A stretch of 58,788 nucleotides of DNA from Candidatus Gastranaerophilales bacterium (GTDB taxonomy: Bacteria; Cyanobacteriota; Vampirovibrionia; Gastranaerophilales; Gastranaerophilaceae): positions 1-58,788 of the forward strand of contig CALUSL010000012.1 of assembly GCA_944323425.1 (NCBI GenBank), written 5' to 3'. The notes under the pieces were generated by a model, which saw only the letters and a program-made list of their open reading frames with translations, was not told the DNA's origin and searched no databases. The position numbers were made by a program, and so were the translations under genes. Positions 3,586 to 9,549 of the stretch are shown here, piece by piece (position 1 is the first letter of the stretch; every line of letters starts with the position of its first letter).

Positions 3586-3612
3586 AAAAAAACTCCTTTT
3601 CAGGAGTTTTTA
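3586..3612 (-). terminator. Second copy of the tRNA-Leu terminator
   Basis: Hairpin of actcc/ggagt with flanking A and T runs, identical to the hairpin next to the tRNA (3704-3730) and lying in the duplicated array. Confidence 0.6.
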
Positions 3613-3703: not shown

Positions 3704-3730
3704 AAAAAAACTCCTTTTCAGGAGTTTTTA
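3704..3730 (-). terminator. Intrinsic terminator of tRNA-Leu
   Basis: On the minus strand, a few bases after the tRNA 3' end, aaaaactcc-tgaaaa-ggagttttt forms a stem followed by a run of seven T. Confidence 0.8.
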
Positions 3731-3973: not shown

Positions 3974-5374
3974 TTAAAATCTAAAATAAATAAATGGATT
4001 GTATGTTGAGGCAGCTATGGTTGCAGACGAAAGCAAGAATAACGCTAACAACCATACATTTACAAATCCGTACAAAATTTTATTTTCGCGTTTCACATTC
4101 AATATATTTCTAAATATCGGAACTGAACAAATCAAAGCCGCAAAAATCATAATAACTTCATACGAATCAACATAATATGGTAATGCATATGCAATATCGT
4201 GTACATCCAATAGTCCGAACATATTTCTAATATATTTGAATGCATAGCCCATATCATCAGACCTAAAAACAACCCATCCGAGTATAAAAACAAATATCGT
4301 GTAAAAATGTTTTATAAAATTCAACGGTTTTGAAACGGTTTCTTTTGACCAGCCTGTAATTTTTTCAAGAATAATAAATAAACCGTTCCAGACACCCCAG
4401 ATTACAAAAGTCCAGCTTGCACCATGCCAGAGTCCTGTAAGCAAGAACACAATCCCCAGATTTAAACAGGTTCTTTTTAGTCCATTTCTGTTACCTCCAA
4501 GCGGAATGTACAAATATTCCTTAAACCATGTAGAAAGGGATATGTGCCATCTGCGCCAGAATTCAGTAATAGATTTTGATATATATGGATAGTTAAAGTT
4601 CTCCATAAACTTAAACCCGAAGATAAATCCGAGTCCGATTGCCATATCAGAATAACCGGAAAAGTCAAAATATAACTGGAAAGAATAAGATACAGCGCCC
4701 AGCCACGCGATCAAAGGAGAAAATGTGTCCGGTGACTGAATAAAAATCTTATCCGCAATTGCTCCGAGGGTATTTGCTATTAGCATCTTTTTGGACAGTC
4801 CTATTATGAATCTTTTCACCCCGTACTGAACTTTTTCAAAATTTACATCTCTATCGTCGATTTGTTCTGCTATATCATGATATTTTACGATAGGTCCTGC
4901 TATTAGCTGTGGGAACAAACAGATATATAGTGTAAGTTTGTAGAAATTCTTCTGTGCTTTGCATTCGCCTCTATATACATCAATCAGGTATGACATTGCC
5001 TGAAAGGTATAAAAAGAAATACCCAATGGCAATATAACTTCAATGAATTTTATGTCCATTGAAAAAATGTGATTTATGTTCTCCAGTACAAAATTAAAGT
5101 ATTTAAAATATGCAAGAAACCCTAAGTCTGCTATAACCGTTAATATAAGTGCAAGTTTTTTGTGCTTTTCAAATTTTTCTATTGCCAGTGCACCTGTGTA
5201 ATTTACAATAATCGTTAAAAGCATTATTGCCAGATACTTTGGTTCGCCCCATGCATAAAAAAGTATGCTCGACACAAGCAGTATCGGATTGTGCAGTTCT
5301 TTTTTGCTACAAAGATATAGCACACACAATATAGGTAAAAATAAAAATACAAACGTCATAGAACTGAAAAGCAT
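3974..5374 (-). CDS. MBOAT-family membrane O-acyltransferase (AlgI-like)
   Basis: This 466-residue polytopic membrane protein belongs to the membrane-bound O-acyltransferase family. Such enzymes move acyl groups (usually acetyl) across or onto envelope glycans such as alginate, teichoic acid or exopolysaccharide. About ten hydrophobic segments are visible, together with family signatures YFDFSGYSDMAIG, EFWRRWHISLSTWF and the invariant histidine in GLWHGASW (His317). The start codon directly follows the stop of the upstream DHHW gene (TAAATG), so the two are one operon. This MBOAT plus DHHW pairing is the known arrangement of AlgI with AlgJ/AlgX. The actual glycan acceptor cannot be told from sequence. 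Confidence 0.93.
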   Translation of the reverse strand: MLFSSMTFVFLFLPILCVLYLCSKKELHNPILLVSSILFYAWGEPKYLAIMLLTIIVNYTGALAIEKFEKHKKLALILTVIADLGFLAYFKYFNFVLENINHIFSMDIKFIEVILPLGISFYTFQAMSYLIDVYRGECKAQKNFYKLTLYICLFPQLIAGPIVKYHDIAEQIDDRDVNFEKVQYGVKRFIIGLSKKMLIANTLGAIADKIFIQSPDTFSPLIAWLGAVSYSFQLYFDFSGYSDMAIGLGFIFGFKFMENFNYPYISKSITEFWRRWHISLSTWFKEYLYIPLGGNRNGLKRTCLNLGIVFLLTGLWHGASWTFVIWGVWNGLFIILEKITGWSKETVSKPLNFIKHFYTIFVFILGWVVFRSDDMGYAFKYIRNMFGLLDVHDIAYALPYYVDSYEVIMIFAALICSVPIFRNILNVKRENKILYGFVNVWLLALFLLSSATIAASTYNPFIYFRF

Positions 5375-6595
5375 TTAATTCTCTCTTTCGTACATATTTT
5401 TCAAAGGAATAATATAAGCACTGGAGATAGTTAGAATCAGTATATCAGGTTTAATTTTTAATATTTCTTTTTCATAGCCGGACATTTTAATTTCATCTAC
5501 AAATTTTCTTTTGGTATTATTCGCCCTCATATATTTTAGATGTTTAAAACTGTATGGCAGAATGTCATTAAAATTCTCCGACATACTATTGCCTATCTCT
5601 ATAGCTGTTAAATTATTTTTCGCGGGAAAGTAAAAATCTTTTATTTTGTTATCGTAATCTATATCTATTTTCAAACTTTTATGTTTTTTATGATTGTAAT
5701 AAGGATATTCAACATCCAGAACTTTTTCTGATATTTTCTTATCATCAAGGTTTAAAAATGCATACAATGTTTGTCCCGTTGTATATTCTCTGGTAAAATC
5801 ACTACGCACCAACGTATTTTTTGATATGTTATAGTCAGTTATCGTGTCAGACATAAAACCAGGGAAATCTTTCTTGATTTCTTTTGCAAGCAGTGTGTAA
5901 CCGATAAATGCGCCATAATCTGTCCAATGGTGGTCAGTTTTAAAAAACACAAAATTTTCTTTAGCTAAAGATTTGAACTGTTCAGATGGGAAAATTATTT
6001 TTAAATCTGTATTCTTCTTCGCATATTCATATATTTGATGAAAGTTTTCAGTTTTTCCTGCCGGCATGTAAACATTTTGTTCTTTGTAAATATCTTCTTT
6101 TGCAGGTACGACTACAAGATAGAATTTGATATTGTGTGAATTGCAAAACTCATTTAATCTTTGCAAATTTGAAATAATATGTTTTACTGTATTTTCGGAC
6201 AGTTTATCATAAACTGCCAGTGAGTATGGTTCTAGCCTGAATCCCCATTGTGTTTCTTTATTTAATAAAGCATGATTGGGCAGAACATAATTTTTATATG
6301 CTATGTAGTATTTAAACTTATCAAAATACGAAATTATTTCATCTCTCAAATAAAAATGATCTGAAAAATAGTTATTATAATTATTGCCCCAGTCATAATT
6401 TATGTTCTTATCCATAATGAATGGCTGATATGTCGCCAATATACGAAGTTCTTTTTCTGAGAACACTTTCGTATCAAGTTTTACCATCGGCACAAAAAGC
6501 AGAATAAAGAATGTTAAAAGAAAGACTATATCCATCCTTGACTGATTTTTAAGTGTCTTAAAATCTGCAAGATAACCGGTAAGTTTATAAAACAA
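5375..6595 (-). CDS. DHHW/AlgJ-AlgX-like protein, C-terminal part of a gene split by a C10 tract
   Basis: This 406-residue frame holds an ALGX/ALGJ-type SGNH-like acetyltransferase domain. A membrane segment sits at about 23-42 (FLLTFFILLFVPMV), then a catalytic domain with the DHHW signature (D221-W224 counted from the TTG at 6595) and a serine-bearing block EIGNSMSEN near 335-343. The nominal TTG start lacks a ribosome site. Reading upstream, the frame stays open past 6595 to the G10 tract at 6824-6833 and would join the frame of 6793-7116 if the tract had 8 or 11 bases. The real gene is therefore probably 5375-7116 (579 or 580 residues), out of frame here. Its partner is the MBOAT gene directly downstream. 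Confidence 0.85.
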   Translation of the reverse strand: MFYKLTGYLADFKTLKNQSRMDIVFLLTFFILLFVPMVKLDTKVFSEKELRILATYQPFIMDKNINYDWGNNYNNYFSDHFYLRDEIISYFDKFKYYIAYKNYVLPNHALLNKETQWGFRLEPYSLAVYDKLSENTVKHIISNLQRLNEFCNSHNIKFYLVVVPAKEDIYKEQNVYMPAGKTENFHQIYEYAKKNTDLKIIFPSEQFKSLAKENFVFFKTDHHWTDYGAFIGYTLLAKEIKKDFPGFMSDTITDYNISKNTLVRSDFTREYTTGQTLYAFLNLDDKKISEKVLDVEYPYYNHKKHKSLKIDIDYDNKIKDFYFPAKNNLTAIEIGNSMSENFNDILPYSFKHLKYMRANNTKRKFVDEIKMSGYEKEILKIKPDILILTISSAYIIPLKNMYEREN

Positions 6596-6792
6596 AAGAA
6601 AAGAAAGGACAGTAATTATTACAAATAGTTTGAAATCGAATTTTATTGATGAACGAACTTTTAGCGGTTTGTTATAAATTATTGAGAAATTTTCTGATTT
6701 AGGAGTTACTACAAGAGAATTGTCTTTGATTTCTATATCTGCATTTTTTGCAGAAAAATTTTCTAAATCATTGATTTTATACTTGCCATTTC

Positions 6793-7116
6793 TTAGCTCA
6801 AATTCAGATATAATAAGGGTTTCGGGGGGGGGGTAAATGCTTTATTCAGAACAATTTTTATGCGTTTCGCAGATGTTACATGTGCAAATGTAACATTAAA
6901 TTTTGACGATTTAGATAAATCAATATCATATCCTGCTCTTTTTACTTTTTTGAAGTCATTATTGTTTTTCTTGTTCAAAAGAACTTCAATATTAGTGAGT
7001 CCTTGTCCTTTCACATTAAAACAGACATTAAAGGGCTTAAAAATCAACCAGTATCTGTTTGCCGCAGCCACGCATAAAATTGTCAAAATTAGCGCTATTA
7101 TTGTTCTTTTTCTCAT
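6793..7116 (-). pseudogene. N-terminal fragment of the DHHW/AlgJ-like gene, truncated after the C10 tract
   Basis: These 107 codons encode a signal-anchor (residues about 4-22, IIALILTILCVAAANRYWL) and the start of a beta-rich domain. On the minus strand a run of ten C gives TPPP and then 10 out-of-frame codons to a stop. In the alternative frame after the tract, the reading continues without a stop for about 76 codons, through a second membrane segment (FVIITVLSFLLFY), into the DHHW domain of the next entry. It is either a phase-variable gene captured in the off state, a genuine frameshift, or a homopolymer error. Confidence 0.75.
6824..6833. repeat. G10 homopolymer (C10 on the coding strand)
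   Basis: Ten consecutive G on the plus strand, the longest G/C run in this AT-rich window. It lies inside the coding region of the DHHW gene, exactly at the point where the reading frame breaks. Losing two or gaining one base restores a single open frame 5375-7116. Confidence 0.9.
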
Positions 7117-7179: not shown

Positions 7180-9549
7180 TCACTCTTCAAAAATTGCTTT
7201 GAAATATATATCAGCACTCTGTGTATTATACATTGGCGTGTGTTTCCAGAGTTTGAAAGTAACACCTGCAGGCAGGTCTGTTATACTGAACTCCAGCTTA
7301 GGCTGCATTGGCGAAGTATTATTGCAACCGCCTTTTAGCTTACAGCTGGAGCCGACATGAATATAATCTAACAATTCATAAACATTTTCTGATACATTGT
7401 CAGATTTTGTAAAATACAAATTATATTTTTCATAAACATATGTATATTTATATCCGAAATCACGGGCATTTAATCCTACAAATGCAAGCGGTACAATATA
7501 TTCCGGCTGCTGTATGTTTCTTATCAGGCTTTTATCTGCTTTATATACAGCAATAATCATTTTGTGATCTTTGTCATAATACATAGATTTGGGAATAAAC
7601 TGCATAAGCTTATTTTTGCAAAATGGAGTGTTTTTCGGATAGTGATATCCAAGATGATTTATAACCCCGAGAAGTAAAGACGGATTGTTCATATAAACAC
7701 TTCTTGCTGTTGGTCCGTCTGCAACGTCGGGTCCGAATGGGCAGGCTGTATTGTCCAGACCATACCAAGGCTTTTTATCCTGTATTCCTCCGAATACTGT
7801 TTCATTGGGCTTATAAAATTTTGATGCAAAACGGGATGAATTAACGTATTTTTTTCTTAAATTAAATATTTCTTCTTTAGTCAGATTGTCATACTCTGAG
7901 GGGGGATTAACTTTAATTTTTTCCAGATTTTCAAACAATTTTTCACTGCTTTGTGCTTTTTCTTTTTTTTGTTTTTCTGCGGCATTTTTGTCAATTGAAG
8001 CAATCAAATTTTCAACTTCTGCCAGATTCTTTGCATTATATTTAAACGTGTTTTTTTTCAATCCCGCTGTTACAATTTCTCTATATTTAGTAAAATCGTC
8101 AAGAGCCTCTTTCTTCTTTCCCAGCTTTAGATAACATTTACCCCTGTTCAATCTTGAGGTTGTATAGCTGTCAGGAATAACGATTGTATCAAGTAGTTTT
8201 GTGTAATATATAACGGCATTTTCGCAATCATCAAGTTTTCTGTATGCAAGGGCCGCATTATATAAAGCCTCTATTTTTGCATCAAACTGGTCATCTGCAT
8301 ATTTTATATTTTTTGCAACAAGCGATTTTTTGTTTGATTCGTTCAATTCAATAGATTTTAGTGCATATTTGACAACATTTTCATAATCATGCTTGTCTCT
8401 GTAAATATCAGAAATATCAAGAGCAATCAAATAATCATCAGCATATACGGACTCAGCTTTTTTTAGAAAGTTCAAAGCTTCTTCGTTCATTTTGTCATAT
8501 TTAAAATCCAGAGCCTGGTTATAATAACCAATGAATACCTTTTCCATAGACTGTTCTGAAGAAAAATTTAAACTAAAATTTGCACAAATTATGTAGTAAA
8601 TACAAAAAGAAAGTATTGCAGATGTGCAAACAAGTTTTTTATCCATAATTTTTGCAGGCAGCACAACTCCAGAAAATCCCCAGAGCAGAAGAAAGATAAT
8701 CAGCCATAATAATGGAGTGATATAAGTATAAGAAAATGTTGCATCATTATTTTCTTTGAATTCGTTTAATTTATATGCAAAATGTTTTGCCAAAAAAGGC
8801 ATATAAAAATATAATCCCGGATCAATTGTATAAACTTTTCCATTTTCGTTTATATCAATTTTTAATTCATAATGTCCGTAACGTCCGCCGTGTTGATATT
8901 CAAGTCTTGTATCTTGAACATTATTTATATTGAACATATTGACGTTTGGGGTTAAAAAAGCATATGAGCGTAATGTGCATTGACCATCCGTTCTATTACA
9001 GTCACAGCTCATTACCGAAAACATAACAATACCAGCAATAATCAGAACAATAGAGGTTATTCCTATTGTGAGAATTTCGTTTATACTCATTTTTGATTTT
9101 AGGTCGAGATTTTGTATTATCAGCGGCTCCAGATGCAAAAACAAATTTTCTGCACCGGATTTTTTTAAAACCAATCGCTCTTCTTCCCCTTGATTGTTTT
9201 TCAGGTACAGTGTATTTCCCCGATATAATGCTTTTGTAATACAGCTGTATGGAAAAACTTTTGCTATTGAATTATTTTTTACAAAGCAGACTGTTTGCGC
9301 TTCATCAGAAATCATTACCCTGTCATACCTGTTATAATTCAGTGTAATATATGTAAGTATTGCAACCGGTAATATATTAAGAATAATGATTGCAGGTATT
9401 ACAAGAGAACCTAGCTTTTCTATGAAATACTGCATATACAAATAACTGCATACACACGTAACCGCCAAAATTATAAACAAAAAAATCCATAAAGGTAGCT
9501 TGTTTATCTTTTTCAACTCATAAACAATGTAATCAGGTTCATTTTTCAT
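7180..9549 (-). CDS. Multi-pass membrane protein with TPR repeats, function unknown
   Basis: The 789-residue protein has membrane segments at about 18-38, 43-66, 160-182, 278-302 and 308-328, enclosing a small cytoplasmic module (70-150) and an external loop (185-275) with a CDCxxxxxxC cluster. Residues about 345-520 contain tetratricopeptide repeats, e.g. ALNFLKKAESVYADDYLIAL and AVIYYTKLL. A lysine-rich linker follows, then a C-terminal domain (560-789) with several cysteines. It lies 63 bases upstream of the split DHHW gene on the same strand, so it may be part of the same envelope-acylation locus; that link is by position only. Confidence 0.75.
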   Translation of the reverse strand: MKNEPDYIVYELKKINKLPLWIFLFIILAVTCVCSYLYMQYFIEKLGSLVIPAIIILNILPVAILTYITLNYNRYDRVMISDEAQTVCFVKNNSIAKVFPYSCITKALYRGNTLYLKNNQGEEERLVLKKSGAENLFLHLEPLIIQNLDLKSKMSINEILTIGITSIVLIIAGIVMFSVMSCDCNRTDGQCTLRSYAFLTPNVNMFNINNVQDTRLEYQHGGRYGHYELKIDINENGKVYTIDPGLYFYMPFLAKHFAYKLNEFKENNDATFSYTYITPLLWLIIFLLLWGFSGVVLPAKIMDKKLVCTSAILSFCIYYIICANFSLNFSSEQSMEKVFIGYYNQALDFKYDKMNEEALNFLKKAESVYADDYLIALDISDIYRDKHDYENVVKYALKSIELNESNKKSLVAKNIKYADDQFDAKIEALYNAALAYRKLDDCENAVIYYTKLLDTIVIPDSYTTSRLNRGKCYLKLGKKKEALDDFTKYREIVTAGLKKNTFKYNAKNLAEVENLIASIDKNAAEKQKKEKAQSSEKLFENLEKIKVNPPSEYDNLTKEEIFNLRKKYVNSSRFASKFYKPNETVFGGIQDKKPWYGLDNTACPFGPDVADGPTARSVYMNNPSLLLGVINHLGYHYPKNTPFCKNKLMQFIPKSMYYDKDHKMIIAVYKADKSLIRNIQQPEYIVPLAFVGLNARDFGYKYTYVYEKYNLYFTKSDNVSENVYELLDYIHVGSSCKLKGGCNNTSPMQPKLEFSITDLPAGVTFKLWKHTPMYNTQSADIYFKAIFEE

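Follow-up and report, generated by a model that had tools for sequence, protein, structure and literature searches.

A C10 homopolymer as candidate phase-variation switch in a putative two-component O-acyltransferase gene of a Gastranaerophilales bacterium

Phase variation driven by homopolymers is known mainly in pathogens such as Campylobacter, Neisseria and Haemophilus, and the protein pairs AlgI/AlgJ and PatA/PatB are known to carry acetyl groups through the membrane and attach them to exported glycans. Campylobacter offers the best-known case of poly-G/C switching: in Campylobacter jejuni NCTC11168, the poly-G/poly-C loci of 7 or more number 29 (PMC4965091). The oafA gene of non-typeable Haemophilus influenzae encodes a phase-variable O-acetyltransferase which decorates a surface glycan (PMC6479036). 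In Neisseria meningitidis, pglI is responsible for a phase-variable O-acetylation, its ON or OFF state deciding whether the surface glycan is acetylated (PMC11130364).

The window analysed here is a stretch of 58,788 nucleotides from a Candidatus Gastranaerophilales bacterium (contig CALUSL010000012.1, assembly GCA_944323425.1) with a G+C content of 35%, and it contains on its minus strand a putative O-acyltransferase gene interrupted by a homopolymer of ten cytosines. As in the poly-G/C genes of Campylobacter jejuni, the tract is intragenic, of similar length, carried by an AT-rich genome and located in a candidate surface-modification gene whose ON or OFF state would depend on the reading frame. 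The two cases differ in that the lineage and the gene are unrelated, switching is here inferred from relatives, the genus of the window possesses mutS and mutL, and either G or C can occupy the coding strand at one site. By comparison with oafA, where a GCAA tetranucleotide repeat controls a single acyltransferase, the window displays an SGNH-MBOAT pair. In the case of pglI the modified glycan is a protein-linked oligosaccharide, and the likeness lies in the phase-variable acetylation of a surface glycan. The closest two-component O-acetyltransferases, AlgJ/AlgX-AlgI and PatB-PatA, likewise associate a membrane-anchored SGNH protein with an MBOAT protein encoded beside it; the gene of the window differs from them by an additional N-terminal domain, inside which the tract is found. 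It also differs in that no alginate or other polysaccharide cluster is present among the genes listed around the locus.

The tract occupies positions 6824..6833 and consists, by direct reading, of exactly 10 bases, C10 in the coding strand and G10 on the plus strand. From the ATG at 7116, a frame of 107 codons extends to a stop at 6793, and 3' of the tract another frame stays open for 485 codons up to a stop at 5375. A tract of 8 or 11 bases would restore a single frame of 579 or 580 residues, and the arithmetic of the sequence-only reading was right on this point. That reading had assigned the feature to 6793-7116; the tract does lie there, but the feature is the whole interrupted gene (5375..7116, minus strand), which would comprise about 580 codons if in frame and has full-length single-frame homologues in other genera. 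The tract is, as had also been claimed, the longest C/G run of the AT-rich window, the runners-up measuring 7 and 6 bases. Under a first-order Markov model of the window, 0.0035 runs of at least 10 bases are expected in the window and 0.12 in the 2.03-Mb genome. The C10 is thus far above chance for a mononucleotide run inside a reading frame. A pattern search of the 2.03-Mb genome returned three C/G runs of at least 10 bases and two of 9; all genome-wide run counts given below were likewise obtained by pattern searches.

The N-terminal part of the gene (6793..7116, minus strand) encodes a membrane anchor and the first portion of the N-terminal domain, the stretch before the tract being without Pfam match, and runs out of frame past the tract to the stop at 6793. 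The open frame after the tract (5375..6832, minus strand) contains the rest of this domain, two membrane segments and an AlgJ/PatB-like SGNH (DHHW) catalytic domain. This part matches the Pfam families ALGX (1.7e-12) and DHHW (2.9e-07), and its Protein Data Bank matches are PatB1 of Bacillus cereus (5v8d, E 2.9e-07) and AlgJ (4o8v, E 1.7e-04). The catalytic motifs TDHHW and GNS are intact, with the conserved Asp, His and Ser motifs present. The product is best described as a probable O-acyltransferase subunit. Single-sequence structure prediction of the read-through protein gave a mean pLDDT of 35 and was set aside. The ATG of the partner gene, an MBOAT O-acyltransferase (3974..5374, minus strand; PF03062, 7.1e-36), directly follows the DHHW stop codon (TAAATG), and an MBOAT gene adjoins the DHHW homologue in nearly every homologous locus examined; both the DHHW domain and the MBOAT neighbour proposed earlier are confirmed by Pfam. 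Upstream, on the same strand, a membrane protein with TPR repeats is encoded at 7180..9549 (Pfam TPR) and is also the neighbour in two congeners, G001 and G002; this gene is possibly on the same transcript as the DHHW gene, without any implied role in the switch. A promoter scan performed no better than on shuffled sequence. Elsewhere in the window, two copies of one terminator-like hairpin (3588-3611 and 3706-3729) lie at a distance of about 118 bases from each other, beside an apparent tRNA and partial copies of its end.

The species of the window is represented by one genome (G000), and comparison within the genus relied on three other genomes (G001, G002 and G003). No match was found when viral contigs were searched with the tract flanks for another copy from the same species, and a contig scan returned only the congener G001. 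The gene is kept in two of the three congeners, G001 and G003, with 84% and 76% identity after the tract. At the same site, the coding strand carries G13 in G001 and G12 in G003 instead of C10. None of the three assemblies has its two halves in frame, and the tract is the sole lesion in each. In G002, most of the pair is lost through a deletion (C14:56118 onward) that leaves DHHW residue ~33 joined to MBOAT residue ~384.

Nei-Gojobori omega was computed among the three congeneric genes for three segments: ahead of the run it lies at 0.10-0.26, over the next 70 codons at 0.05-0.18 and over what remains of the gene at 0.09-0.15. Because omega is low in all parts, the stretch from the run to the first possible start at 6595 is coding and the gene is not decaying freely; the earlier proposal that these ~76 codons are coding is borne out by their conservation in the congeners. 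The dS values for pairs including the window's gene are about 0.9-1.45, near saturation, and omega therefore says little about the very recent past. Omega values of 0.05-0.26 show purifying selection on both halves and, taken with the intact catalytic motifs, indicate that the gene is kept functional despite its OFF states. Each of the four genomes of the genus encodes both mutS and mutL, so there is no sign of slippage raised through lost mismatch repair, and loss of mismatch repair was rejected as a cause.

Homologues were detected in 52 of the 146 genomes of the family, spread over 22 of its 41 genera. Those devoid of a tract mostly consist of one open frame of ~540-600 codons and about a dozen are continuous, the exceptions being G011 and G048, with one internal TAA each, and G071, which is split near residue 440. 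Among homologues carrying G/C runs of 9-14 bases, nine are in frame (C11 in G073, C10 in G117, G13 twice in G049, G12 in G102, G13 in G017, G11 in G037 and in G094, G14 in G101) and nine are out of frame (C10 in G000, G13 in G001, G12 in G003, G110 and G113, G11 in G077, G9 in G085, G11 in G057, G13 in G101). According to alignment coordinates, nine genes have their halves at offset 0, five at +1 (G003, G110, G113, G077 and G085) and four at +2 (G000, G001, G057 and G101). G000, G077 and G085 were scored out of frame by the frames of their HSPs, as alignments running back through the run mimic an in-frame gene. Run length varies among close relatives and shifts an otherwise intact coding sequence into and out of frame, and the earlier suggestion of candidate phase variation is strengthened by these tracts of varied length and phase.

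All these runs belong to the N-terminal domain; most fall within query residues 92-99, the remainder lie at ~109-130 apart from a single one at 37, and the runs have therefore settled in more than one loop. Runs of G11, G11 and G12 are present in three species of another genus (g35). In a tree of the catalytic part calculated for 35 homologues, run presence or absence changes at least 5-6 times. Distant homologues without an alignable N-terminal domain (G103, G120, G139 and extra copies in G049 and G101) also carry runs near their start. As a separate observation, G091, a genome assigned to a different genus, contains a nearly identical version of the out-of-frame G101 gene with the same G13 run; this near-identity may reflect either horizontal transfer or contamination, the G091 contig measuring 3.2 kb.

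The reading that we favor, with a probability of roughly 0.85, is that the window's gene is a phase-variable (contingency) gene of a two-component O-acyltransferase, switched by slipped-strand mispairing and OFF as assembled. The proposed mechanism can be briefly summarized as follows. Mispairing of the strands during replication would alter the length of the G/C run. One frame in three would then yield the full membrane-anchored SGNH protein of ~580 residues, and this protein and its MBOAT neighbour would jointly place acyl (probably acetyl) groups onto an exported glycan. Translation in either of the remaining frames would end shortly past the tract without producing the catalytic domain, leaving the glycan unmodified, and the assembled C10 sequence would correspond to this OFF state. 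The OFF frame may also lower translation of the MBOAT gene, because the start of the latter abuts the DHHW stop codon. Slippage at replication is strand-symmetric and fits the data well, since the coding strand may carry either base and the homologues cover all three frame phases. From the variation among relatives we infer that the tract switches reversibly within a population, and such a switch would be expected to change the cell surface. Three findings count against phase variation: all three copies of the gene in the genus are OFF as assembled, mutS and mutL are present, and dS near saturation limits what omega can say about recent times.

The sequence-only reading had itself named an assembly error, or relatives holding two truly separate genes, as outcomes that would overturn it. 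Separately assembled relatives carry either base, with different flanks, in the same N-terminal region, and the long tract is on that account not an assembly error; runs of 9-14 bases recur in separately assembled species and genera, and the existence of the tract is no artefact, but its exact length may be off by one or two bases. It is very unlikely that the true run is in frame and the break an artefact of sequencing or assembly. Indel errors are usual in homopolymers of at least 10 bases, and the population may hold a mixture of lengths of which a draft assembly gives just one. An error of one or two bases would nevertheless leave the AT-rich gene with a long G/C run, eight further homologues are out of frame at their tracts, and an error would not put runs of G in some congeners and of C in another at one site. 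The relatives do not hold two truly separate genes either: the frame is continuous in nine homologues with a tract and in about a dozen that lack one. The second frame of the window moreover offers no ATG, GTG or TTG before 6595, a position which is itself inside a membrane segment. A chance overlap of two genes at the run, as the two open frames of a mechanical annotation would have it, can hardly be entertained and is the least probable of the explanations considered.

A recent pseudogene, frameshifted and now decaying, could be suspected from the broken frame in the window's genome and in both congeners with the gene, and from the deletion that removed most of the DHHW-MBOAT pair in G002. 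We regard it as no less improbable than a sequencing error: none of the three genes has a lesion other than the tract, the low omega extends over the N-terminal, middle and catalytic parts, the catalytic motifs are intact, and decay would not hold a long tract in place while swapping its base. Programmed ribosomal frameshifting or transcriptional slippage, by which a genome that does not switch would still make a constant proportion of full-length protein, would be compatible with the conservation of both halves and with the ability of RNA polymerase to slip at long homopolymers. Against it, the offsets of 0, +1 or +2 among homologues define no fixed direction, and the coding strand may carry C (Pro codons) or G (Gly codons) alike, a misfit to a codon-specific slip site. 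This explanation is rated marginally below assembly error and pseudogene in probability. A programmed frameshift of fixed direction in particular is disfavoured by the occurrence of all three frame phases, and some slippage at the RNA level may be superimposed on DNA slippage. Slipped-strand phase variation of the gene is consequently retained as the preferred reading.

The number of C/G runs of at least 10 bases per genome ranges from 0 to 176 with a median of ~36 among 52 genomes of the family, a sample weighted to a few genera; elsewhere in the class it is mostly 0-3, although some genomes reach as many as 27. In the window's genus, long runs are mainly found in flagellins with large inserts between conserved ends, at the point where the conserved N-terminal part stops, and about half of them are in frame. 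Large flagellins with GLUG or RTX-like repeat inserts and a G/C run of 9-13 bases occur in all four genomes (G000, G001, G002 and G003). The flagellin runs of G003 are in frame in six cases and out of frame in six, and Flagellin_N matches number 23 in this genome and 9-10 in the other congeners. In G049 and G025, which belong to two other genera, most runs are located in genes encoding a type-IV-pilin N-methylation motif, a few codons past the start and ahead of that motif; 15 of 34 were scored in frame, a few start codons being ambiguous, in a sample of 20 stretches per genus.

Other runs of the genus include an 11-base G/C run near the 3' end of an Acyl_transf_3 gene in G000 (C9:41393-41403) and in G003, where slippage would therefore change the C-terminal tail, and a 9-base C/G run, in frame, in a repeat-rich surface-like protein of 1455 codons (G000, C1:87663-87671). 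Similar tracts are present in other surface genes and the tract of the window is therefore read as one of a class. The gene is probably, though with less assurance than its own phase variation, part of an extensive repertoire of G/C-run contingency loci in this family of non-photosynthetic gut relatives of cyanobacteria, comprising giant flagellins, pilin leaders and acyltransferases, with tens to more than 100 runs of at least 10 bases in individual species, such that each cell would display its own surface combination.

Phase-variable glycan O-acetyltransferases are already known and seem to be undescribed in the lineage of the window: no report of phase variation in Gastranaerophilales or Melainabacteria was found in the open-licence literature, which is weak evidence of absence. 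The locus represents a candidate phase-variable surface gene in an uncultured gut commensal, amid many like tracts, and gut metagenome reads that already exist would allow a direct test. Should switching be confirmed, cells within a single population would differ in surface acylation, and such cell-to-cell differences, if true, would bear on recognition by phages and by the immune system.
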